This document shows positions 17,792 to 29,851 of a stretch of 64,000 nt of DNA, piece by piece (positions within the stretch are counted from its first letter, which is position 1; every line of letters starts with the position of its first letter). The notes under the pieces were generated by a model that saw nothing but the letters and a program-made list of their open reading frames with translations, had not been told where the DNA came from and did not search any database. The stretch comes from Rhodopirellula sp. SM50 (GTDB lineage Bacteria; Planctomycetota; Planctomycetia; Pirellulales; Pirellulaceae): positions 1-64,000 of the forward strand of contig NZ_NTFY01000017.1 of assembly GCF_002289565.1 (NCBI RefSeq). Reading direction: 5' to 3'. The position numbers and the translations under genes were made by a program.

Positions 17792-17846
17792 TAAAGAAAC
17801 ACTTCATGTTGACGCCCCAACCATCGAATGATCTCAGGTCACCGTT

Positions 17847-18995
17847 ATGAATTTTGATTGGAGCGAAGCGCAACTCGCCTATCGCGATCGGATGCAAACG
17901 TTCGCGTTGGAGCATCTGAGCGACGATGTGATCGACAGAGACGAACGGAGCGCGTTCGCCGAAGACCTTTGGCAGCGGGCCGCCGAGTTTGGCATCCAGG
18001 GTCTGTACATCCCGACCGAATTTGGCGGTCGAGCTTCGGCCGATATTCAAACCGCGATGCTGGCCATGGAAGCGCTCGGCTACGGATGCAGCGACGGCGG
18101 TCTGCTGCTGGCGCTGAACGCACAGATGTGGGCCGTTCAGCTTCCGATTTTGCATTTCGGAAGCGAGTTTCAAAAAAAACGCTTTCTGCCACGACTTTGC
18201 GACGGCACTTGGAAAGGGGCGCATGGGATCACCGAACCGAGTACCGGTAGCGACGTCTTTCATCTGAAAACAACGGCGGAGAAAGTGGACGGCGGCTACG
18301 TGCTCAACGGCAGCAAGTGCATGGTCACGCTCGCACCGATCTGCGACGTGGCACTCGTCGTGGCAAGCACGAATCCGGCAAAGGGCAAGTGGGGGCTGTC
18401 GACGTTCTTGGTCGAGGCGGAACAGGAGGGATTCCGCCGCGGCGCGAACCATCTGAAAATGGGCCTTCGGACCGTCCCGATCGGCGAACTGCATCTGAAC
18501 GACTGCTTCGTGCCCGAATCACATCGACTCGGCAAAGAAGGTGGCGGCTTCGCCACGTTCAATCATTCGCTGGAATTCGAACGCTGCTGCATCTTGGCCA
18601 GCCAAGTCGGCGCCATGCAGCGCCAATTGGAAACGTGCGTCCGGTACGCCAAAGAACGTCCCCAATTCGGCCAGCCGATCGGGAAATTCCAGTCGATCTC
18701 CAATCGAATCGCAGACATGAAAGTTCGCTTGGAAACTTCAAAGCTGATGCTCTACAAGGTCGCGTGGCTGAAGAGCCAGGGAAAATCCGCGATGATGGAC
18801 GCCGCCATCTTGAAACTGTACCTGAGTGAATGCTACGCACAGTCCAGCGAAGACGCGGTGCGGATTCATGGCGGGCGAGGCTACCTGTGCGAAAATGGGA
18901 TCGATCGAGATTGGCGTGACGCAATCGGCGGCGTCTTGTACGCCGGCACGTCGGACATCCAACGCAACATCATTGCGGGACTGCTTGGGGTTTGA
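17847..18995 (+). CDS. Acyl-CoA dehydrogenase-fold prolyl-carrier-protein oxidase (predicted)
   Basis: FAD enzyme of 382 aa with the full acyl-CoA dehydrogenase layout: ITEPSTGSD near 128-136 (flavin region), KMGLRTVP near 204-211, RPQFGQPIGKFQ at 271-282 and the C-terminal RIHGGRGYLCENGIDRDWRDA. The catalytic base is informative. The position used by medium-chain enzymes (the E of YEGTSQIQ) is Ala366 in YAGTSDIQR. A Glu is present instead at residue 245 in LEFERCC, matching the isovaleryl-CoA dehydrogenase-type site also used by carrier-protein prolyl oxidases such as AnaB. With the adjacent adenylation and carrier genes, the expected reaction is oxidation of L-prolyl-S-carrier to pyrroline- or pyrrole-2-carboxyl-S-carrier (PltE/RedW/AnaB-like). 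The stop lies 2 bases before the next ATG, so the genes are co-transcribed and probably coupled. A role on another aminoacyl substrate is possible. Confidence 0.85.
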   Translation: MNFDWSEAQLAYRDRMQTFALEHLSDDVIDRDERSAFAEDLWQRAAEFGIQGLYIPTEFGGRASADIQTAMLAMEALGYGCSDGGLLLALNAQMWAVQLPILHFGSEFQKKRFLPRLCDGTWKGAHGITEPSTGSDVFHLKTTAEKVDGGYVLNGSKCMVTLAPICDVALVVASTNPAKGKWGLSTFLVEAEQEGFRRGANHLKMGLRTVPIGELHLNDCFVPESHRLGKEGGGFATFNHSLEFERCCILASQVGAMQRQLETCVRYAKERPQFGQPIGKFQSISNRIADMKVRLETSKLMLYKVAWLKSQGKSAMMDAAILKLYLSECYAQSSEDAVRIHGGRGYLCENGIDRDWRDAIGGVLYAGTSDIQRNIIAGLLGV

Positions 18996-18997
18996 CG

Positions 18998-20644
18998 ATG
19001 ACGGATCTGCTACACGAAAATTTAACACGTTCGGCGTTGAAGACACCCGACCAGGTGGCGTTCCGCTGCGGCAACCATTCCCTCACGTACGCCGAACTGG
19101 ACGACCGTTCGTCTCGGCTCGCGACCGTTCTCCGCGATCGGGGCGTGCGCCCCGGTGACCGTGTCGCGGTGCGTCTTCCTGCCGGCGTTGAAACCCCGAT
19201 CAGTGTATATGGGGCAATGAAGGCCGGCGCGGCCATGGTACCGGTAGATCCCTCGGCTCCGCCGTCTCGGCTGTGCAGCATCCTGCAGGGCGGCCATGTC
19301 CGTCATCTCATCACGACAAAGCTGGCCGAATCGGCACTGGACGTACTCGATCGCGGCGCCACACCACTCCAACACGTGATCGGCGTCGAAGGTGCGGATT
19401 GGCCGACCATCGCATTCACCCCCTGGTCGGCCCTCGATGCGGTCGACCCCATCGATCCGATTCCGATCGACCGGACGCACCCTGCCTACGTGATCTTTAC
19501 CTCCGGTTCGACCGGGACCCCCAAGGGCATCGTGCACTCGCATTACAGCGGCAACAGTTACGCCCGTCTGTCGGTCAAGACCTACGACGTCAGCGGCGAC
19601 GACCGAATCGCGAATCTGTCGCCACTGCACTTTGACATGTCGACCTTCGGTTACTATTCGGCGGTGATGGCAGGAGCGACGACGGTGCTGATCCCACCCT
19701 CCTACAGCATGTTGCCGGCCAGTCTCTCCTCGCTGATCGAATCGCAGCGAATCACGATCTGGTATTCGGTGCCCTTCGCGCTGGTCCAATTGCTTCAGCG
19801 AGGCGTTCCCGAACAACGGGACCTGTCCAGTGTTCGGTGGATCCTGTACGGCGGTGAACCGCTCGCCCCGCGGCATGCACAGCAGTTGCGACGCGTGATG
19901 CCCGACGCGTGGATCAGCAACGTCTACGGTCCCGCGGAAGTGAATCAGTGCACCTACTTTCACATCGCGCCGACCTCTCGGGGCGGACCGCAGGAACTTT
20001 CCGAGCGGCCGATCCCCATCGGATCGCTCTGGGAACAGACCGAGGGATTGATTCTCGATCCGCTGGATCAAGTGGTCCAGGGAAAGGGAGTCGGCGAATT
20101 GCTCGTTCATTCCTCCACAATGATGACCCGGTACTGGCATCTGGGATGTGACGACCCGGTCACGTTTTACTTTGATTTAGGCAGCGGGAAACGTTTTTAT
20201 CGGACGGGCGATCTGGTACGACGCGGGGACGACGGCGAACTGGAATTCTTGGGCCGGGTCGATCGTCAGGTCAAAGTGCGAGGCTACCGGATCGAACTCG
20301 ACGAGGTCGAACATGCGATTGCAAAACATCCCGCGGTCGTCGAAGCCGCCGCCTTCTGCGTCACGGTGAATGAAACCGGTCGCTTGCTCGCCGCGGTGAC
20401 GTTGCAGGATTCGAGTCGATCCGAAACGAGTGGTCTAAAAAAGCAATTGGCAGAACAGCTGCCGCCTTATGCGGTCCCGGAACAGCTATTCGTCCGAGAC
20501 ACGTTTCCGCGGACGACCAGCGGGAAGATCGACCGTTTAAAACTGCAACTGGAATACAACGCGTTCCCTGATTCGAACACGGACCGCGGCGTGACGCCGG
20601 ATCCCGTCGGCGGATCTGCTGTCCCCAGACAACGACGGCAATGA
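18998..20644 (+). CDS. Stand-alone adenylation enzyme, predicted L-prolyl-AMP ligase
   Basis: A 548-aa ANL-superfamily enzyme without fused carrier. The start MTDLLHENLTR is typical of stand-alone aminoacyl ligases. Core motifs: A3 TSGSTGTPKG at 168-177, A4-like HFDMS at 211-215, A5 VYGPAE at 309-314, A7 YRTGDL at 401-406, A8 QVKVRGYRIELDEVE at about 424-438 and A10 TTSGKIDRL with Lys510. The pocket region around IWYSVPFALVQLLQRG recalls stand-alone prolyl-AMP ligases of pyrrole pathways (PltF/RedM/CloN4 type). Hand alignment to GrsA gives pocket residues D213, M214, F217, Y256, L283, G285, V309, Q317, C318; treat this as approximate. It is predicted to charge the carrier encoded 54 bp downstream. 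GGGG at 18987-18990 precedes ATG 18998 by 7 bases. The last about 25 residues after A10 are low-complexity. Confidence 0.85.
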   Translation: MTDLLHENLTRSALKTPDQVAFRCGNHSLTYAELDDRSSRLATVLRDRGVRPGDRVAVRLPAGVETPISVYGAMKAGAAMVPVDPSAPPSRLCSILQGGHVRHLITTKLAESALDVLDRGATPLQHVIGVEGADWPTIAFTPWSALDAVDPIDPIPIDRTHPAYVIFTSGSTGTPKGIVHSHYSGNSYARLSVKTYDVSGDDRIANLSPLHFDMSTFGYYSAVMAGATTVLIPPSYSMLPASLSSLIESQRITIWYSVPFALVQLLQRGVPEQRDLSSVRWILYGGEPLAPRHAQQLRRVMPDAWISNVYGPAEVNQCTYFHIAPTSRGGPQELSERPIPIGSLWEQTEGLILDPLDQVVQGKGVGELLVHSSTMMTRYWHLGCDDPVTFYFDLGSGKRFYRTGDLVRRGDDGELEFLGRVDRQVKVRGYRIELDEVEHAIAKHPAVVEAAAFCVTVNETGRLLAAVTLQDSSRSETSGLKKQLAEQLPPYAVPEQLFVRDTFPRTTSGKIDRLKLQLEYNAFPDSNTDRGVTPDPVGGSAVPRQRRQ

Positions 20645-20698
20645 CGTGATGGCAATGCTTTTCTTTCGCTCCTTCATTCCCGCCCCCCTAAAGCCACG

Positions 20699-20959
20699 AT
20701 GACCGACACCGACCCGATGCCGAAGCTCATGTCTTTCATCCAACATGAACTGATGGGCAACCAAACGGATCCGATTTCCACGGACGACGACTTGCTCGGT
20801 GGTGGCCACATCGATTCGATGGGAATCATGCGGTTGGTCGCGTTTCTTGAAACGGAATTTGGCGTCTCGGTTCCGCCGGAGGACGTGACGATCGAAAACT
20901 TCGAAACGCCACAGACCATCGCAGACTATGTCCAAGCCGCATGCCGGGACAGGAGCTGA
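20699..20959 (+). CDS. Stand-alone acyl/peptidyl carrier protein
   Basis: An 86-aa acidic carrier protein. The phosphopantetheine site is Ser40 in GGGHIDSMGIMRLV, and helix III follows in VPPEDVTIENFETPQTIADYV. Its size and position next to a stand-alone adenylation enzyme and a dehydrogenase match PltL/RedO/AnaD-type carriers that hold proline during oxidation. The gene start ATG 20699 follows the adenylation gene by 54 bp, and its 3' end overlaps a possible earlier start (20941) of the next gene. No phosphopantetheinyl transferase gene is present in this window, so priming must come from elsewhere in the genome. Confidence 0.9.
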   Translation: MTDTDPMPKLMSFIQHELMGNQTDPISTDDDLLGGGHIDSMGIMRLVAFLETEFGVSVPPEDVTIENFETPQTIADYVQAACRDRS

Positions 20960-20967
20960 TTCGATTC

Positions 20968-21861
20968 ATGCCGGCGACCGCAACCTCGCATCAACCGACA
21001 GACGCCGAATCGACAGCCGCGACCGGTTCTTGGCGTAGGACACTCGGCACCGGCATGAATTCGGCGGCAGAACGCTTTCGTCGACGCCCCGGCTTGGCGG
21101 GCTGGTTTTTACCGGCGATCGCATTCCTGTTGGAGGCGATATCGATCGGACTGATGCGTCGTCGTGATGTGGCGGACATGGTTGCAAAAACCTACGCGTC
21201 ACGGCCCGAGTTTTACGATCCGGACCGCTATCAGTTGCCGCACGAGTCCCGCATGTTGCCAACGCTGCTGAAACATCGATCCTCCTGTCGACTGCTCGAC
21301 GCGTTCTGTGGTCAAGGCAGGGAAGCCAAATGGTTTGCCGATGCCGGCTATCAGGTCACGGCCATCGATCGCTTGGATTGGATGATCGATCGCGCAAAAC
21401 GCTACGCCGTCGAGGCCGGGTTTTCGGCCGACTTCATCGCAGAGGATTTCGATACCTTTGATCCTCCCGAAACTTTCGAGGTCGTCTACACGTCGTGTTG
21501 GATGTATTCCACCGTGCAGGGCGTCGACCGGCGACGCGAGTTCCTGAAGCAATGCGATCGCCTGTGCAGCGAAGATGGGCTGGCCGTTGTTTCGTACGTC
21601 AACCAGCGGGCAAGTTCCAAAGCGGGGGCTTGGGTCCGATTTTGTATCGCAAAGTCGGTGGCGTGGTTGACGGCGGGAAATGTCCGAACCGAATTCGGCG
21701 AACGGATTTACACGGGATTGTTCTGGCATCACTTGTCCGATGCAACCGCTCGTCGCGAAGTCGACGTGGCGGGGTGGCAAATCGCAGAGATCATTGCTGG
21801 AAACGGCATGGATCCGACGTTCCTGTTTCTTAGCCGCCGCCGCAGAGAGACACCGCGATGA
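20968..21861 (+). CDS. Class I SAM-dependent methyltransferase
   Basis: A 297-aa methyltransferase from ATG 20968; an earlier ATG at 20941 overlaps the carrier gene by 19 bases and would add 9 residues. SAM-binding motif I is LLDAFCGQG at 109-117, with an acidic residue at the end of strand 2 in TAIDRLD. The N-terminal about 60 residues are not part of the catalytic fold and include a hydrophobic run at about 44-62 (AGWFLPAIAFLLEAISIGL) that might contact a membrane or partner. The substrate cannot be predicted. The stop overlaps the NRPS start as ATGA at 21858-21861, so translation is probably coupled and the enzyme is expected to tailor the same product, possibly by N- or O-methylation. Confidence 0.85.
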   Translation: MPATATSHQPTDAESTAATGSWRRTLGTGMNSAAERFRRRPGLAGWFLPAIAFLLEAISIGLMRRRDVADMVAKTYASRPEFYDPDRYQLPHESRMLPTLLKHRSSCRLLDAFCGQGREAKWFADAGYQVTAIDRLDWMIDRAKRYAVEAGFSADFIAEDFDTFDPPETFEVVYTSCWMYSTVQGVDRRREFLKQCDRLCSEDGLAVVSYVNQRASSKAGAWVRFCIAKSVAWLTAGNVRTEFGERIYTGLFWHHLSDATARREVDVAGWQIAEIIAGNGMDPTFLFLSRRRRETPR

Positions 21862-24800
21862 GCCCCTCATTCGCTGGCAACCAGCAATTGATCTGGATCG
21901 GCCAACAACTGCAGCCGGATGTCCCGCTGTACGAAGTGCCCTATCGTTACACGATTCACGGCCGCATCGATCCACACCGCTTCGCCGACGCGTTCCGACA
22001 GTTGGTCAGTCATAGCGAAGTGCTTCGAACCGTCGCCACTGACGATCAATGGACACGTTCGGCCGTGAGAGCGGTTCGCGAGGTGGAGTGCCGCGTCGTG
22101 GATTTTTCGTCCGCGCCCGACCCACAGGCCGACGCCGATCGAATCGTCAGCGAACGACTTGCCGGTCGCTTCGATCAAACCCGATCGCTCTGCGACGCGA
22201 TGCTCCTGCGATTGTCAGCTGACCAATGGGAATTCTATCTGACGATTCACCATGCGTTGACCGATGCGTTTGCCGGACGGGCGATCTTGGCAACGTTGGC
22301 GAAGTTTTATGAAACAGACCCAAGCGATCGTACGCAATTGGATGTTCCTGACTATCGGCAGTACCTCGATTGGCAAGCTCGCCAAAAATCCGACGATTCC
22401 GTTGCCCGGCAAACGGCATGGTTTGCCGAACGCAGCGACGCATCGCCGGGAACACGATTCTATTCCGCCGGACGTGAATCGGTCTCGGCGCGACAGACCC
22501 GCGTCACGGTGCGGTTGAACGACGAGGAGAATCAAGCGATTGCAACCTCGGTGATGGTGTCTCCTTTTCGTCAAATCACGGCCCCACTGGGCCATTTCAA
22601 TCTGTTTGCCACGACCCTGATCGCGTGGCTCAGCCGACTCGAACAACAGGAGTTCGTTTGCATTGGGGCGACAACACACGGCCGATCCACCCCGGCATTC
22701 CGAGAAACGATCGGATTGTTCATGCAACTGCTTCCCTTCCGCGTCTCGGTCGATCCGTGGGAAACGTTTGCAGATCTGTCGCGAAAGGTGGCGGCCGAGT
22801 CGATGGGGTTTCTCTCCAACGCGATGCCAGGCGCCATGACATCCGAATCGCAGCGCGCCTTCGACGTCGCGCTCAACGTGATCGACTTGGCGGTGGACGA
22901 TTTTGCCGGCATGCCGACCTCGCTGCGGTGGTTGCACAACGGATACGGAGATCCCCAACGCGAACTGACCGTCTCCGCCCTTCCGCTCGACGGCGATCGA
23001 TGGGAGTTGCTGTTCGACTTCAGCGACGATGTCTTTTCGGCAAACGATCGTCAACGGGCGGTGCAGCATTTCCGGAACACGCTGATCGCGATCAGCGCTT
23101 CCCCGACGACTCGAATTGCCGACTATGACTTGCTCACCGATTCGGAGCGTGCTTTCCTGGCCGACCATTGCGGCGTCGCGTTGACCTTGAAACCCGTCAA
23201 CCTCTGGCAAACGTTCTGCAATCAATGCGAGCGAGTTCGTGACGCGATCGCAGTGGACGGTCCGGCGATCCAACTCAGCTATGACGGGCTGCGGCAGATG
23301 GCCCGAACGCTGGCCGAACAAATCGAGGATTCCGGATTCGACGAATTGGTTCCGATCTTCTGTCGGCGTGATGAAAAAGCCATCATCGCGATGATGGGTG
23401 TCCTGGCAAGCGGACGTTGTTTCCTGATCGTCGACGCGGAAAACCCTCCCGAACGTGCGAGACAATTACTGTCACAGTCCGGCGTTTCACGGATGATCGA
23501 TGCAACCGGGGACTCGATTTCCGTCGTCCCCATCGCAGCGCCCCGGCAATTGACTTGTGATTTGCCGCAAGACGCGTGCTATGTGCTGTTCACCTCGGGG
23601 TCGACCGGCCAACCACAGGGCGTCGTGGTTCGCCATGAATCGGTTTGGAACCTGTTGAATGCGTTTGAAACGATGGCGCCTGTGAAACAGGATTGTCGTT
23701 GCGCGTGGTGGACCAACATCGGTTTCGATGTTGCGATGTACGAAGTTTTTTCAGCGTTACTGTTCGGCAGAACCCTGTGCATCCCCAGCGACACGCAACG
23801 CCTCAGTGCCGACGAGATGCTGGATTGGATGCGTTCGATGCAGATCGACAGCGCGTACTTGCCGCCGTTTTTCTTGGAGGCGTTGGATCGGCAACTGGCC
23901 AATGGTCGACCGCTCCGCCTGAAGCGTCTACTGGTCGGCGTCGAACCGATTCCCCAACGACTGCTCGCCTCGATCGTCGACCGATCGCCCGATTTGACAT
24001 TGATCAATGGTTACGGGCCGACCGAGACCACCATCTGCGCGACGCTGCACCCCATCGACCGACTCGATCGCTCCTCGGGGCCGGCAAGTATCGGCAGACC
24101 CGTTGCCGGAAACTCGATCCTGATCGTCGACTCGGCCGGCCGACAGGTTCCGCCCGGAGTGCCCGGTGAATTGTGGATCAGCGGCGCGGGACTGGCCAAC
24201 GGATACCTCGCCAATCCGGACCTGACGCGTCAACGATTCGTTACGCGACCGGCATCCGGCGATGACGTCGTCTGGTATCGCAGCGGAGATCGCGTTCGGA
24301 TGCGCGACGATGGTGCGCTGGAATTTCTCGGACGGATCGACGATCAACTGAAACTGTCTGGCGTGCGGATCGAACCGGCAGAAATCACGGCGGCGATCCG
24401 ACAATGCGATGGCGTACACGACTGCCTCGTGCTGCCTCAAATGCGCAATGGGCGTGCCGAAAGGTTGGTCGCGTTGATCGAAGGCGATTCGGCGATCGAC
24501 GTTGACCGTATCCGGCGGCACCTCCGCACGCGTTTTGCAGCCGCGATGGTGCCGTCGCGATTCATCGTCCAGCCGCGATTCCCTCGGACGATCAATGGAA
24601 AGATCGACCGAGAGCAGATCGAAGCGATTCTGGACCGGCAACGATCCGATGACGTCGCCCAGTCGTCAGTGACGATCACGGCACCGAAGAACGCCATCGA
24701 GTTCACGCTCGTCAACCTCATCAGTGCGACACTCGATTTGAAGTCCGTGGGCACCGACGATGACTTCTTCGAATTGGGCGGCTCTTCTCTCGATGCGATG

Positions 24801-27800
24801 CGGTTCGTCTCGCGGGCCAACGAGCTGGGGATTTCCATCACGATCCAGGATGTTCTTCGACACCGTGACGCGAAAACGTTGGCCAGCTTGCAAACGCTCA
24901 TGCCTGACGTTCCCGATCAACACCAATCGGACGCGACACCGGCTGCGGAATTCTCATCTGGTCAACGGGCGATCTGGTACCACTGGCACTCCAACCGGCA
25001 ATCACCGGCCTATCAGTATCAAGTCACCTGGAAAGCCAGCGGCCAAATCGATCCGGCACTCGTTCGACGTTGTCTGGCAAAACTAATTCGTCAACATCCG
25101 GCGCTCCGCACGACCGTCGATGTACAAGAGGGCGTCCCGGTCCCTCGGGTGCACGATGACTTGCCCCTTGCCTGGACGCTCTGGGACCACGATGCGACCG
25201 AAGAAGCGATCGTCGCCGAAGGCCGGCGTCCGTTCGATCTGGCACGCGATGGACCGCTGCGTGCACTGTTGGTGCGGTCCCGCGATCATGGCGACACGTT
25301 GGCCATCACGGTTCACCACATCGCCGTCGACCAACACAGCATCCAACTGTTGATGAACCAATTCGCCCACGACCACATTAAAGGGGAAGGGGGTCTTTTT
25401 GACGAAGTGGAAGCCACGTCGCGCGTGTCCAAACCTCAAAAAAGCCCCCCGTCCCCTTTTGCACCTCAAAAAAGACCCCCTTCCCCTTTTTCGTGGTGGA
25501 GGGGGCGATTGGAGGGGTGCGATCGGGCGGTCGCGTTGCCGTTTGATTTTGAATTGTCGGCGGAGGGCTCTGAGGATGGGGAGCTGTTTCGATTTTCGTT
25601 GTCCGATCAACTCAGTGCGGCGATCCGTCGATCTGCGTCCGCATGCGGCGTCTCGGTCGGCACGTATTTGTTGGCCGCTTATTCTGTCTTGCTTTCACGC
25701 TATTCGGCGACGGAAAACTTTGTGATCGGGATACCGGTCAGCCGACGAGACAACTGGAGTTTGGAAGACGGGGAAGTCGGCTTCTTGATTGAAGCTCTGC
25801 CGTTTGCCTGTCGCATCCGACGCGACGTGGCCTTTGACGAACTGGTCGGGCAGATCAGCAATGATTTCGCCGACGTGCTGACCCACCGCCAGGCGACGCA
25901 CCAGGAACTCTCTGAGCATTTCGGAACTCTGTTCGAAACGATGTTTGTTCCGCAGCAACCGCTCGCGCCGCTGGAACTCGGCGACGGTTTGACATTGACC
26001 CCCGCAGTGTCTGACCTGGGCGTAGCGAAATTTGACCTGACTTGGTTCGCCGCTGACGCGCGTCCCCGGATCCAGTGCGCCATTGAGTTTCGCACCAATC
26101 GTTTTAAACGGGAAACCATCGAGTTGATGTCGCAGCATTGGCGGTCGCTGCTCGAACAGCTCGCCGCGACCCCGAGCCAAAGCGTTGGGCAAATCGACTT
26201 TAGCAGCGAGACTGATCAAGCGGCGATGAAGGCATTGGCAGGGCATCACGATCCTCCGGCGATTGATCCAGACGGCCAGACAGTGATCGAACGGATCCAG
26301 TGTCGCGGCTACGAAACGCCCGACGCGGTCGCAGTGGTGTGTGGCGCCGAGTCGATTCGATACCGAGACTTGATCGATCGGGGCGGCAAGCTGGCGGAGA
26401 GGCTGCGCGAGGCAGGTGTTGGGCCGAACGTCGCTGTCGCCGTGTGTCTCTCACGATCGGTCGAGATGGTCATCGGTATCTTCGGGATTCTGCAAGCAGG
26501 CGGTGCCTATGTGCCGTTTGATCCAGACCTGCCCTTGGAACGTCTGCGTCAACTCTCTGCGCGTGTCGGCGCCGGCGTCGTGGTCGGAAATCGATCTGGC
26601 CTGGGCAGCGTTTTCCAAACGGTAATCGATCCCCGTGACTTGCCGCGGACCAGAAATGCTAACGGTGCGCGGATTGACGCGCTCCAGGGCCAGTCATTGG
26701 CGTACATCCTGCATACGTCCGGTTCCACCGGACAACCCAAGGGGGTGGAAATCACGCATGATGCATTGCTGCGTTCGACCTTGGCGCGCAAGTCGTTTTA
26801 CCCAACGGCTCCGCAGCGATACTTGATGGTGTCTCCGATTTGGTTTGACAGCTCGGTTGCTGGAATCTTCTGGACGCTCTGTGACGGAGGGCAATTGATT
26901 CTGCCGCAGGATCAAGACTTGCAAGATGTCCAACGTTTGGCAGCGTTGATTGATCGATATGAAATGACCGAGACGCTGGTCCTTCCGTCACTCTATCGGG
27001 TGCTCGTCAAGCACGCGAACCCGACATCGCTTCAGACACTCCAACGAGTTATCCTGGCGGGCGAATCCTGTACGCAGCCCTTGGTCCGACAGCACTTTAA
27101 GATCTTGCCGAGCACTCGCCTGTTCAATGAGTATGGTCCGACCGAGGCATCGGTTTGGTCGACGGTTGCGGAGCTAATGCCGACTGACGACATGATTTCG
27201 ATCGGGCGCAGTGCCGGAGAAACGCCCGTCTGCCTGCTTGATCGAAACGGTGCGGCGGTCCCCATCGGATGCGTCGGCGAAATCCATCTCGGTGGTCCGC
27301 GCCTTGCAAACGGGTATCACGCGGATCGCGAACTCACGAATCAAAAGTTTATTCCTGATCCGCGTTCGGGCAGTTGCGGGCGACTTTACCGGACGGGCGA
27401 TCTGGCCCGCATGCGCCGCGACGGTTCGTTGATCTTCCTGGGACGTCTGGACGACCAAATCAAAGTCAACGGCATGCGCATCGAACCGGCAGAGATCGAA
27501 TCCGAACTGGTGGACGTCGACGGGGTTTGGGACGCCGCCGTCATGGCGATTCAGCGGAGTCCGGTCTCCGTTTCCGATCAGCCCGACGCACTCGTCGCCG
27601 CGCTCAGCGAGTTGCCGGCCGAGGAAGCTCAGCGTTGGATCGATCGGGCGATGGATATCGACAGCGGCATTGCAGAGACACTCACGTATGAAGACGATCA
27701 CGCTCGATGGTCCGTCGAAATCAAACAGAGTGAGTTCATCGCGACACCACGAAAACGCCAACGCGCGTGGATGCTCAACCAAATGCTTCGCGACTCCGCT

Positions 27801-28466
27801 GCCGACCTGAACGCTTTGGACCGGATCGCACGGCAGATGGTTGCGGGAAGTGACGCGCCGCATCTGCCACGCGACCTGTCGACGGAACGACTGACGGACC
27901 AAGAGATCATGGAGGACTGGCAATCTCCACTGATGAAAGTGATGGCGGAATGGGCAACCGAGTCACATGGCGATGTCTTGGAAATCGGATTCGGGCGGGG
28001 CGTCGCGGCAACGATGATTCAGCAATCCGGGGTGCGTTCTCATACCATTGTCGAAATGAATCCCCACAGCATCAACGATCACTTCGTGCCCTGGCGGAAA
28101 CAATACTCCGATCCGAATATCCGCCTCATTCCCGGCCCCTGGCAGGACAACGTCGACAAGCTGGACACGTATGACAGCGTCTTTTTTCATGCGTTTCCGA
28201 TGAACGAGACGGAGTTTATTCAGTATGTCGCCAACAGCGCGACGTTTGCAGAACATTTCTTCCCCGTTGCGTCAGGGTTGCTACGTGACGGCGGCGTGTT
28301 CACGTATTTAACGACCGAGATTGATTCATTGAGCCGTCGACATCAACGCAGTCTGCTGGAACATTTTGATGAGATTCAAATGAGGATTCAGCCGCTTTCG
28401 ATTCCCGAAGACACCAAAGACGCATGGTGGGCCGACTCCATGGTGGTCGTGAGGGCGGTCAAATGA
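21858..28466 (+). CDS. Nonribosomal peptide synthetase, C-A-T-C-A-MT
   Basis: A 2202-aa NRPS. It begins with a condensation domain (about 1-430; active-site HHALTDA at 131-137, with Ala in place of the usual final Gly) and no loading module, so it needs an acyl starter from a separate carrier. Adenylation domain 1 spans about 455-925 (FTSGSTGQPQG near 578, NGYGPTE near 717, NGKID near 913). Carrier 1 follows with Ser977 in LGGSSLDA. Condensation domain 2 spans about 1020-1455 with HHIAVDQ at 1153-1159. Adenylation domain 2 spans about 1470-1900 (HTSGSTGQPKG near 1619, NEYGPTE near 1757, A8 KVNGMRIEP near 1866) but lacks A10. A methyltransferase domain ends the protein (about 1930-2202; VLEIGFGRG at 2040-2048). 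The missing A10, carrier and thioesterase are on the next gene, overlapping by ATGA. Hand-derived pocket residues: A1 D-V-Y-Y-L-G-G-I-C; A2 D-S-A-L-I-A-E-V-W. No amino acid is assigned. A DNA repeat interrupts the second C domain at about residues 1175-1212. Confidence 0.95.
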   Translation: MSPSFAGNQQLIWIGQQLQPDVPLYEVPYRYTIHGRIDPHRFADAFRQLVSHSEVLRTVATDDQWTRSAVRAVREVECRVVDFSSAPDPQADADRIVSERLAGRFDQTRSLCDAMLLRLSADQWEFYLTIHHALTDAFAGRAILATLAKFYETDPSDRTQLDVPDYRQYLDWQARQKSDDSVARQTAWFAERSDASPGTRFYSAGRESVSARQTRVTVRLNDEENQAIATSVMVSPFRQITAPLGHFNLFATTLIAWLSRLEQQEFVCIGATTHGRSTPAFRETIGLFMQLLPFRVSVDPWETFADLSRKVAAESMGFLSNAMPGAMTSESQRAFDVALNVIDLAVDDFAGMPTSLRWLHNGYGDPQRELTVSALPLDGDRWELLFDFSDDVFSANDRQRAVQHFRNTLIAISASPTTRIADYDLLTDSERAFLADHCGVALTLKPVNLWQTFCNQCERVRDAIAVDGPAIQLSYDGLRQMARTLAEQIEDSGFDELVPIFCRRDEKAIIAMMGVLASGRCFLIVDAENPPERARQLLSQSGVSRMIDATGDSISVVPIAAPRQLTCDLPQDACYVLFTSGSTGQPQGVVVRHESVWNLLNAFETMAPVKQDCRCAWWTNIGFDVAMYEVFSALLFGRTLCIPSDTQRLSADEMLDWMRSMQIDSAYLPPFFLEALDRQLANGRPLRLKRLLVGVEPIPQRLLASIVDRSPDLTLINGYGPTETTICATLHPIDRLDRSSGPASIGRPVAGNSILIVDSAGRQVPPGVPGELWISGAGLANGYLANPDLTRQRFVTRPASGDDVVWYRSGDRVRMRDDGALEFLGRIDDQLKLSGVRIEPAEITAAIRQCDGVHDCLVLPQMRNGRAERLVALIEGDSAIDVDRIRRHLRTRFAAAMVPSRFIVQPRFPRTINGKIDREQIEAILDRQRSDDVAQSSVTITAPKNAIEFTLVNLISATLDLKSVGTDDDFFELGGSSLDAMRFVSRANELGISITIQDVLRHRDAKTLASLQTLMPDVPDQHQSDATPAAEFSSGQRAIWYHWHSNRQSPAYQYQVTWKASGQIDPALVRRCLAKLIRQHPALRTTVDVQEGVPVPRVHDDLPLAWTLWDHDATEEAIVAEGRRPFDLARDGPLRALLVRSRDHGDTLAITVHHIAVDQHSIQLLMNQFAHDHIKGEGGLFDEVEATSRVSKPQKSPPSPFAPQKRPPSPFSWWRGRLEGCDRAVALPFDFELSAEGSEDGELFRFSLSDQLSAAIRRSASACGVSVGTYLLAAYSVLLSRYSATENFVIGIPVSRRDNWSLEDGEVGFLIEALPFACRIRRDVAFDELVGQISNDFADVLTHRQATHQELSEHFGTLFETMFVPQQPLAPLELGDGLTLTPAVSDLGVAKFDLTWFAADARPRIQCAIEFRTNRFKRETIELMSQHWRSLLEQLAATPSQSVGQIDFSSETDQAAMKALAGHHDPPAIDPDGQTVIERIQCRGYETPDAVAVVCGAESIRYRDLIDRGGKLAERLREAGVGPNVAVAVCLSRSVEMVIGIFGILQAGGAYVPFDPDLPLERLRQLSARVGAGVVVGNRSGLGSVFQTVIDPRDLPRTRNANGARIDALQGQSLAYILHTSGSTGQPKGVEITHDALLRSTLARKSFYPTAPQRYLMVSPIWFDSSVAGIFWTLCDGGQLILPQDQDLQDVQRLAALIDRYEMTETLVLPSLYRVLVKHANPTSLQTLQRVILAGESCTQPLVRQHFKILPSTRLFNEYGPTEASVWSTVAELMPTDDMISIGRSAGETPVCLLDRNGAAVPIGCVGEIHLGGPRLANGYHADRELTNQKFIPDPRSGSCGRLYRTGDLARMRRDGSLIFLGRLDDQIKVNGMRIEPAEIESELVDVDGVWDAAVMAIQRSPVSVSDQPDALVAALSELPAEEAQRWIDRAMDIDSGIAETLTYEDDHARWSVEIKQSEFIATPRKRQRAWMLNQMLRDSAADLNALDRIARQMVAGSDAPHLPRDLSTERLTDQEIMEDWQSPLMKVMAEWATESHGDVLEIGFGRGVAATMIQQSGVRSHTIVEMNPHSINDHFVPWRKQYSDPNIRLIPGPWQDNVDKLDTYDSVFFHAFPMNETEFIQYVANSATFAEHFFPVASGLLRDGGVFTYLTTEIDSLSRRHQRSLLEHFDEIQMRIQPLSIPEDTKDAWWADSMVVVRAVK
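25380..25489 (+). repeat. Palindromic repeat element inside the NRPS reading frame
   Basis: Arms of 21 bp (25380-25400, starting aaaggggaaggggg; and its exact reverse complement at 25469-25489, starting aaaaagacccccttcccc) enclose a third, degenerate copy of the right arm near 25438-25460. The element is read in frame as a low-complexity peptide with PPSPF repeated twice (about residues 1175-1212). It lies in the loop after HHIAVDQ and before the conserved Trp region SWWRGRLEG of condensation domain 2. Its base composition (runs of A, G and C) differs from the flanking coding DNA. Confidence 0.9.
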
Positions 28467-29851
28467 AACACCGCGAATCGATCGCCCAACGCGTCGACGC
28501 GTTGACGCAGCGACAACGACAATGGCTCGCCGATCAACTCAAGACGCGTGATGCCCGCGACGCCGGTCCCACGTCAAAAGAATTGGTCGCTTGGGTGGTC
28601 ACAGACTCCGATGGGATCAACGATCAAGAGCTACGTCGCCAGTTCCACCAACGATTGCCTGCGGCATTGATCCCCCGCCGCATCGCGCGAATCGCTTCGA
28701 TCCCCCGAACAGGCTCGGGAAAAGTGGATCGTCACCGACTGGCAGCGATGGACCTGGATGTTCCTCGGCTCGTCACAGATCCAGACGTCGAGCAGAGCGA
28801 CCACGAGCGGATTCTGGTTCGACTCTGTCGTCAATTGTTGCGTCTCGATCAGGTTTCGCCCCTGGACAACTTTTTTCATATTGGCGGTGATTCGCTGCTA
28901 AGCATTCGGTTGATCTCGATGGCGCGTGAAGCGGGACTGGAAATTGAACCCAAAGACATCCTGGAGTGCAATTCGATCGCGGAGTTGGCGGCAGCGGCGG
29001 AGCATCGCTCACGCGGCGAGGCAGCGCCGCAGCAAGACCGCGCCGGTTCGGTGATCTCCAAAGTCAGGTCGGGGAAGCAAGCAGGATCGCTGTTGCTGGT
29101 CCACGAGGTCGGTGGACAGTGCCACTACGCCCACTACCTGGCCGCCGACTTAGCGCCCCGGCGAACGCTGTATGTCACCCACCAACCGGCACCGGGCGAC
29201 AGCCCGTCGACGATCGAAGCGTTGGCCAAATTATACGTGGACGCTTGGATCCGTGCCGAACCCGGCGGCCCCCGTTGGATCCTTGCGTTCTGCTGGGGTG
29301 GGCTGTTGGGGTATGAGATCGCCCGGCAATTGAAGCAACTCGGCCAATCGATCGATGCCCTGCTGATTGTCGAATCAGGCACGGAAGCGGCTTACGTCCA
29401 CGCGCCCAAATGGAACCGACACGTCGACCGGATGAAAGGGAATCTGGTCCGCGTGCGAAACCGTGTTCGTTCGTTGAACAGTCGCGAAGCCTTCGGGAAA
29501 CTGATCCAGACGCTCAACGCGAAACTGATGCGGCGTCGCCACGAACCGATCACGGCCGATGCCGGATTCCAATTTCGCGACGACGAAGGTGATCCCGAAC
29601 AAATCCGCACCAACGTTCAAGCGTTCTTGGATTATGCGATCCAACCGGACGAACTGCCGCTGCATCTGTTCCGCGTCGCCGGCCCCACCGGGCTGATCGG
29701 GACGCGTTATAGCGATCGTTCCCTCGGGTGGCGTTACTTGGTCGGAAAACATCTCTCGCTGCACTCGATCCCGGGGACACACAATACTTGCATGCAACCG
29801 CCCCACGTCGGCAGACTGGCCGACGCGATCAATCACGCCATCGATGGCTGA
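28463..29851 (+). CDS. NRPS termination protein: A-tail, carrier, cysteine thioesterase
   Basis: A 462-aa protein starting at ATG 28463, overlapping the NRPS stop (ATGA). Residues about 38-98 are the missing C-terminal part of an adenylation domain, with A10 IPRTGSGKVDRHRL (Lys87). A carrier domain follows with Ser144 in IGGDSLLS. Residues about 205-460 are a type I thioesterase. Its nucleophile elbow reads LAFCWGG, with Cys277 where Ser is usual; the acidic position is Glu304 in LIVESG rather than the usual Asp, and the catalytic His is probably His440 in IPGTHNTC. Together with the upstream protein it forms one module split across two polypeptides. The ORF is open from 28424, but the overlap and the domain start favour 28463. 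Release may be hydrolysis or cyclisation; Cys thioesterases are known from systems making strained rings. Confidence 0.9.
   Translation: MKHRESIAQRVDALTQRQRQWLADQLKTRDARDAGPTSKELVAWVVTDSDGINDQELRRQFHQRLPAALIPRRIARIASIPRTGSGKVDRHRLAAMDLDVPRLVTDPDVEQSDHERILVRLCRQLLRLDQVSPLDNFFHIGGDSLLSIRLISMAREAGLEIEPKDILECNSIAELAAAAEHRSRGEAAPQQDRAGSVISKVRSGKQAGSLLLVHEVGGQCHYAHYLAADLAPRRTLYVTHQPAPGDSPSTIEALAKLYVDAWIRAEPGGPRWILAFCWGGLLGYEIARQLKQLGQSIDALLIVESGTEAAYVHAPKWNRHVDRMKGNLVRVRNRVRSLNSREAFGKLIQTLNAKLMRRRHEPITADAGFQFRDDEGDPEQIRTNVQAFLDYAIQPDELPLHLFRVAGPTGLIGTRYSDRSLGWRYLVGKHLSLHSIPGTHNTCMQPPHVGRLADAINHAIDG

Follow-up and report, generated by a model that had tools for sequence, protein, structure and literature searches.

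A nonribosomal peptide synthetase gene cluster of Rhodopirellula sp. SM50 with an adenylation domain divided between two proteins, and its relatives in six phyla

We analysed a 64,000-nucleotide stretch (hereafter the window; positions 1 to 64,000 of contig NZ_NTFY01000017.1) of the 9.8-Mb genome of Rhodopirellula sp. SM50. It contains six same-strand genes (17847-29851, + strand) of a nonribosomal peptide synthetase (NRPS) cluster, plus a membrane-protein gene 55 bases 5' of them (Table 1). An initial annotation, made from the letters alone, had proposed six genes in one direction, and all were present, with gaps of 2 and 54 bases in the region of the starter trio, a short gap of 8 bases before the methyltransferase gene (using the start shared with the relative G208) and ATGA overlaps at 21858 and 28463. 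The functions given to the dehydrogenase, stand-alone adenylation enzyme, carrier, methyltransferase and NRPS1 stood, whereas NRPS2 is no independent module, and the methylation foreseen involves two methyltransferases rather than one, the second being a domain like guanidinoacetate methyltransferase (GAMT) that ends NRPS1 (hereafter GMT). No PPTase had been noted beside the cluster, and none was matched on the contig, but three PF01648 matches lie elsewhere in the genome. The same genome holds three condensation domains (PF00668), two in the cluster and one in another NRPS on a different contig.

Table 1 Genes and domains of the cluster, in positions of the window.
Feature	Position	Strand	Evidence
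HupE/UreJ_2 membrane protein, PF13795	16514..17791 (probable start 16514)	+	PF13795 1.8e-46
Prolyl-carrier-protein dehydrogenase, acyl-CoA dehydrogenase fold (ACAD, P0001)	17847..18995	+	Pfam, NCBIfam, PDB matches
Stand-alone adenylation enzyme (A, P0002)	18998..20644 (TTG start 18992 possible)	+	Pfam AMP-binding + C-terminal domain
Stand-alone carrier protein (T, P0003), Ser in GGHIDSMG	20699..20959	+	PF00550 3.6e-8
Stand-alone methyltransferase (MT), Methyltransf_25 class	20968..21861	+	Pfam; start 20968 from comparison with relatives
NRPS1 gene, C-A-T-C-A then GMT	21858-28466	+	Pfam
NRPS1 C1, HHALTDA	21882..23159	+	
NRPS1 A1, complete, uninterrupted; code by eye DVYYLGGICK	23238..24623	+	Pfam
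NRPS1 T1, LGGSSL	24708..24884	+	Pfam
NRPS1 C2, HHIAVDQ, without DG	24951..26228	+	
NRPS1 A2 core, motifs through A8; code DSALIAEVWK (position 278 corrected by eye)	26310..27542	+	Pfam
Linker/helical segment and GMT (about 27885-28463), NRPS1 end	27543..28463	+	
NRPS2 gene (P0006), A2 C-terminal part, PP-binding and thioesterase	28463-29851	+	Pfam
NRPS2 N-terminus: helical segment and A9-A10 part of A2 (RTGSGKVDR)	28463..28756	+	
NRPS2 T2, IGGDSL	28814..28996	+	Pfam
NRPS2 thioesterase, Cys at nucleophile position (AFCWGG)	29090..29836	+	Pfam

A strong match to the cluster was found in 5 of 14 same-genus genomes, while 241 genomes of the same family gave only three further matches, all weak (E 1e-5 to 1e-3). 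The search for the same gene order in related genomes, suggested at the outset, found it kept in S. sedimenti (G212), G208 and G216 (where an extra gene separates A from T), and in G213 as far as its contig end; this conservation is more than chance. Genes flanking the cluster in the window are common to G212 and G208. Because G216 is without them, the cluster boundary can be placed close to HupE/ACAD on one side and the thioesterase on the other. In G216, A and T stand apart because a second stand-alone methyltransferase gene lies between them, and ACAD is overlapped by a gene for a PhyH dioxygenase (L015:15235-16062 and 18806-19762).

More distant relatives came from one scan of genome contigs with a GMT alignment, which required exact peptide patterns and gave 37 loci, including those of S. 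sedimenti (L018) and G213 (L052). The HupE/UreJ_2 gene, which is probably the first gene of the operon, has homologues in 21 of these (22 counting S. sedimenti via L013), so the earlier statement that no transporter adjoins the cluster was only partly right. The other 15 scan loci had no HupE match, some of them being cut short, and none was found in the 20 kb around the G216 cluster, where the upstream side is short. This neighbour allows another reading, that the trio and NRPS make a metal-binding peptide, with the HupE/UreJ-type protein transporting either the metal or the complex. The gene does adjoin the cluster in Stieleria and Bacteroidota relatives, but its absences just listed, and the lack of a recognisable metal-uptake set among the relatives' few annotated neighbours (one TonB-type receptor lies near L051), make that reading unlikely. 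A literature search for HupE with NRPS gave no fitting paper among those listed. A second membrane-like protein, mostly of 510-550 amino acids, recurs beside clusters (L021:15565-17190, L025, L035, L041, L044 (short), L045, L051, L053 and L070), and the two scanned (L021 and L053) had no Pfam match.

A gene of the ornithine cyclodeaminase (OCD) family occurs in 14 of the 37 scan loci and is a possible proline maker. In S. sedimenti it lies between HupE and ACAD (L013:16548-17627). Positions 17792-17846 of the window hold an apparent 3' end of such a gene, and G208 has only the 5' start (L014:17177-17249); judging from these remnants, the gene was apparently lost independently in the two. The host genome gave no PF02423 match.

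We then considered the starter. The proposal that the stand-alone trio supplies it is supported by the prolyl-type matches of ACAD and the A enzyme, and NRPS1 indeed starts with a C domain and is without a loading A-T. Based on its best NCBIfam and PDB matches, ACAD lies within the prolyl-carrier dehydrogenase family, below the equivalog cut-offs. Its NCBIfam E-values were 1.6e-121 (PigA) and 8.7e-107 (RedW), both under the curated cut-offs; in bits, it scored 406 with PigA (against a cut-off of 500) and 357 with the prolyl-PCP dehydrogenase model (against 650), reaching neither, with the next family at 275. The best PDB match was the AnaB entry 4irn (389 bits), followed by 6cxt and 5zw0, to both of which ACAD is less close than to AnaB; the first match outside the group of 4irn, 6cxt, 5zw0 and 6af6 was 5ol2 (236 bits). 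Its LEFER stretch (Glu 243/245) lined up with MEWER in AnaB and with MDWER in 6cxt, and either Glu may correspond to the conserved catalytic Glu of AnaB/Bmp3 (PMC11177257). The A enzyme matched the L-proline-[PCP] ligase 6o6e with 327 bits along one stretch; entries of LgrA exceeded this in total bits, but with 226 and 248 per domain, and 8xjz also exceeded it when compared by totals. The specificity code, read as DMFYLGVQCK, differs from the proline code of PltF-type enzymes and is variable among relatives (for example, L019 and L023). The carrier protein matched chain A of 6cxt (4.4e-8) and PltL (1.9e-5). Together, these matches indicate that the starter is likely (dehydro)prolyl, pyrroline or pyrrole.

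A carrier and ACAD pair alone is no proof of proline, and a stand-alone A code unlike the proline code would also suit an unsaturated acyl starter that is not proline-derived. Crz3-Crz6 of corallorazine offer a precedent, the acyl starter of crz coming from a ligase, ACADs and an ACP (PMC11342130). We consider such a starter improbable here, given the ACAD scores for PigA and the prolyl-PCP model over the next family and for AnaB over 5ol2, an A enzyme of amino-acid type with the conserved Asp, and the OCD-family genes in relatives. For the proline-derived starter, the distribution of the trio is also informative. At least 50% ACAD identity was found in 28 of 35 genomes holding other GMT loci (26 full and 2 partial matches), with the remaining seven having a match of at most 34% or none at 1e-60, and ACAD is present within 21 of the 37 scan loci. 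Four loci (L036, L042, L071 and L072) keep the carrier, NRPS and split A domain and have no ACAD at the locus, and three of these (L036, L042 and L072) are also without a stand-alone A enzyme there; their starter may differ. Because of the seven genomes and these four loci, the family can evidently do without the trio. On plasmids, prolyl-ACAD matches were seen in Mycetohabitans among others, there perhaps in the endopyrrole cluster.

The earlier proposal of a two-module NRPS with thioesterase release is supported by domain content. The second adenylation domain is divided, its core through A8 standing on NRPS1 with GMT and the stop codon after it, and its A9-A10 part opening NRPS2. The NRPS1 stop and the NRPS2 start form an ATGA overlap, with GAGGG before the ATG. 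Short leucine-rich, helical-looking stretches occur in both the A-core tails and the lid N-termini, with helices in the poor NRPS2 model, and may be docking elements flanking the cut. Codes were read at the ten A-domain code positions; A1 of the window, which the script did not pick up, was read by eye, and in 5 of 33 A2 cores (window, L018, L022, L026 and L037) the script's anchors were displaced at positions 278-301. Because of these five, only D-S-x and E-V-W were counted for all 33. Every parsed core (33/33, from the 40 distinct loci given) had D-S-[ATV] at 235/236/239 and E-V-W at 322/330/331, a pattern that suggests one conserved substrate. Between the window and D. pacifica, the A2 cores share 40% identity.

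The split looks like a working design rather than a broken gene. In all four same-genus loci that reach the junction (window, G212, G208 and G216), the ATGA junction is identical and GAGGG or GAGAGG stands just before the NRPS2 ATG, including G216, whose NRPS2 is only 27% identical; G213 (L052) ends at a contig end before the junction. A frameshift or assembly error, with NRPS1 and NRPS2 forming one protein in life, or a dead gene would fit the overlap of the two frames and the need of an A domain for both halves. Such a reading is extremely improbable and was rejected, given this conserved junction and the variety of splits in the wider set described below.

To describe the wider family, we assembled 44 loci (window, G208, G216, the 37 scan loci and 4 Flavobacteriaceae loci detected only with a profile) and read their ORF architecture by BLAST, then by one rule across all 44. 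The A9-A10 part lay in an ORF separate from GMT in 38 of 38 judgeable loci, including 4 of 4 profile-only loci that the peptide patterns had missed, with nearest starts ranging from a 4-base overlap to a 196-base gap. The six loci not judgeable were L040, L049, L050 and L052, at contig ends, and L047 and L054, where no A-lid was found. GMT was fused to the A core in 7 of the 38 (window, G208, G216 and L018-L021) and scored as its own ORF between the A halves in 31, among which L038 is probably the fused form with a frame break. In a GMT tree of 45 rows (L052 left out), the seven fused loci and L038 formed one clade (100/99), and L047 (Rhodobacteraceae), also core-fused, fell outside it; the rooting is uncertain because the outgroup sits on very long branches.

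The judged loci belong to six phyla (Planctomycetota, Bacteroidota, Rhodothermota, Verrucomicrobiota, Calditrichota and Pseudomonadota), so the design is not a planctomycete speciality, and the GMT genome scan likewise ruled out a Stieleria-only cluster. The family is nonetheless rare in even genome draws, with matches in 12 of 397 genomes from the family to which Dokdonia pacifica belongs (itself included) and 3 of 392 Planctomycetota. Of these three, the only full-length match is the window's; each of the others is a lone methyltransferase that has no cluster NRPS match within 19 kb. None of the 37 scan loci, found by exact peptide patterns, was from Corallococcus, Streptomyces, Serratia, Pseudomonas or Deinococcus, and plasmids gave no GMT match at 1e-10. 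Lone GAMT-like methyltransferases in other planctomycetes (L074 and L075), with no NRPS matches nearby, are possible cousins of the family's GMT.

GMT (NRPS1 residues about 2010-2202) had no match in Pfam or NCBIfam. With phmmer it matched GAMT (7e-14), and only GAMT entries appeared at E<=1; the GMT profile matched 3orh (1.6e-15), and a model with pLDDT 86 matched GAMT in Foldseek (1.1e-13, TM 0.60/0.65). By sequence and predicted fold, GMT thus belongs to the GAMT family. The guanidine-binding acids of GAMT are Glu45 and Asp134; the residues of GMT aligned to them are Gln and His, so that the acidic pair is absent and a role as guanidine methyltransferase is doubtful. The count of the His among loci is biased, FFHAFPM being one of the scan patterns. 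A literature search for guanidinoacetate with A domains found no fitting paper.

The nucleophile position of the thioesterase is occupied by Cys in the window, as it is in 29 of 30 further aligned loci (43 tried), the exception being L023 with Ser. An Asp after the penultimate strand, a candidate for the catalytic Asp that SulM/ObiF1-type enzymes have after strand beta7 (position II), was invariant in five sequences, the AlphaFold model of NRPS2 being poor (pLDDT 56). In SulM and ObiF1, Cys closes strained rings in small products, and the likeness to the enzyme here consists of Cys at the nucleophile position and a short predicted product (PMC11298585). The motif itself is Gln-Cys-Asn in SulM compared to Phe-Cys-Trp here, the two being likened by description (PMC11298585). 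By analogy, release may close a ring, although a Cys by itself does not prove this.

Taken together, the operon probably makes a small peptide from a proline-derived starter and two amino acids. The stand-alone A enzyme would load L-proline onto the carrier and ACAD would oxidise the bound proline, giving the thioester of a pyrroline- or pyrrole-carboxyl unit. Following the domain order, C1 would join this starter to residue 1 on T1 and C2 would add residue 2, which would be activated by an A2 assembled from two proteins, with the core and GMT from NRPS1 and the A9-A10 lid from NRPS2. GMT would methylate residue 2 on T2, most likely at the alpha-nitrogen, the stand-alone methyltransferase would methylate a second site, and the Cys thioesterase would release starter-aa1-aa2 by hydrolysis or ring closure. 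No planctomycete product of such a type turned up among the papers listed in a literature search or in passages of PMC4982196.

The two A2 halves would have to associate for activity, as do the Crz1 and Crz2 halves of the corallorazine NRPS from Corallococcus coralloides, which complement each other in vitro and are, to the knowledge of their authors, the first split A domain for which function was demonstrated by experiment (PMC11342130). This was also the only paper found in a literature search for split A domains. The likeness extends to layout, with C-A-T-C-A-MT on one protein, A9-A10, T and a release domain on the next, and the starter from a separate ligase/ACAD/ACP set (PMC11342130). 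However, crz uses an acyl starter, Ser then Gly, a dehydrating C2 and TD release (PMC11342130), whereas the window has a prolyl-like trio, other codes, a C2 without DG and a Cys thioesterase. Specifically, C2 lacks the dehydrating CmodAA signature (HHIAVDQ rather than DG; helix GTYLLAAY, by eye, compared to [K/R]SVLLAAH), and a thioesterase (Pfam) stands in place of a terminal reductase (TD). The crz nMT is conventionally embedded according to its authors and is set apart by description from the GAMT-like domain here (PMC11342130), and in the relatives the methyltransferase is mostly its own gene. New compared to crz are therefore the other methyltransferase family, the three-gene form, the cross-phylum conservation and the prolyl-like starter.

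Other known systems share parts of this design. The interrupted A domains of KtzH and TioS also have a methyltransferase between A8 and A9 (PMC11355689), but A2 here is on two polypeptides and its methyltransferase is of another family. Among the GMT phmmer matches, the TioS entry 5wmm was absent, though it was matched in a separate search. Prolyl-carrier systems (anatoxin AnaB, pyoluteorin Plt and bromopyrrole Bmp) share the ACAD, A enzyme and carrier, whereas here the trio feeds an NRPS C domain and ACAD falls below the NCBIfam equivalog cut-offs; in those systems the carrier-bound unit takes other routes.

Adenylation domains are regarded as single chains in which a lid swings between two reactions. 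Tentatively, and with somewhat more doubt than confidence, we propose that across this family the A enzyme is a stable complex of an A core, a GAMT-derived methyltransferase subunit, joined to the core in the clade of the window, and an A-lid/carrier protein, in which the helices flanking the cut would dock, the methyltransferase would bridge the halves, and loading and methylation would be coupled by assembly. A six-phylum family that has kept the split wherever it could be judged, and in most cases has a gene of its own for the methyltransferase, would imply that nature can separate lid, core and methyltransferase as parts, and would offer ready-made docking elements for synthetase engineering; lid docking and swinging would become directly testable, and uncharacterised Bacteroidota and planctomycete clusters would share a single pathway logic. 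Such loci would probably tend to be called truncated modules by genome-mining tools.

Two further variations were seen among the relatives. A PP-loop domain of N-acetyl sugar amidotransferase type follows A8 of the module-1 A domain in L021 (5718-6665) and also occurs in L023, L036, L040, L042, L047, L050, L054, L071, L072, L077, L078 and L079, while A1 of the window and of Dokdonia (L076) is without it. A literature search for QueC in A domains found no report; the domain matched WbuX (1.6e-34, below the cut-off) and the LarE-like 8cnz (2.5e-6). In L054 (9947-11779, Rhodohalobacter), GMT stands without an adjoining A core, and the next gene, with no Pfam match, is sulfotransferase-like by eye.
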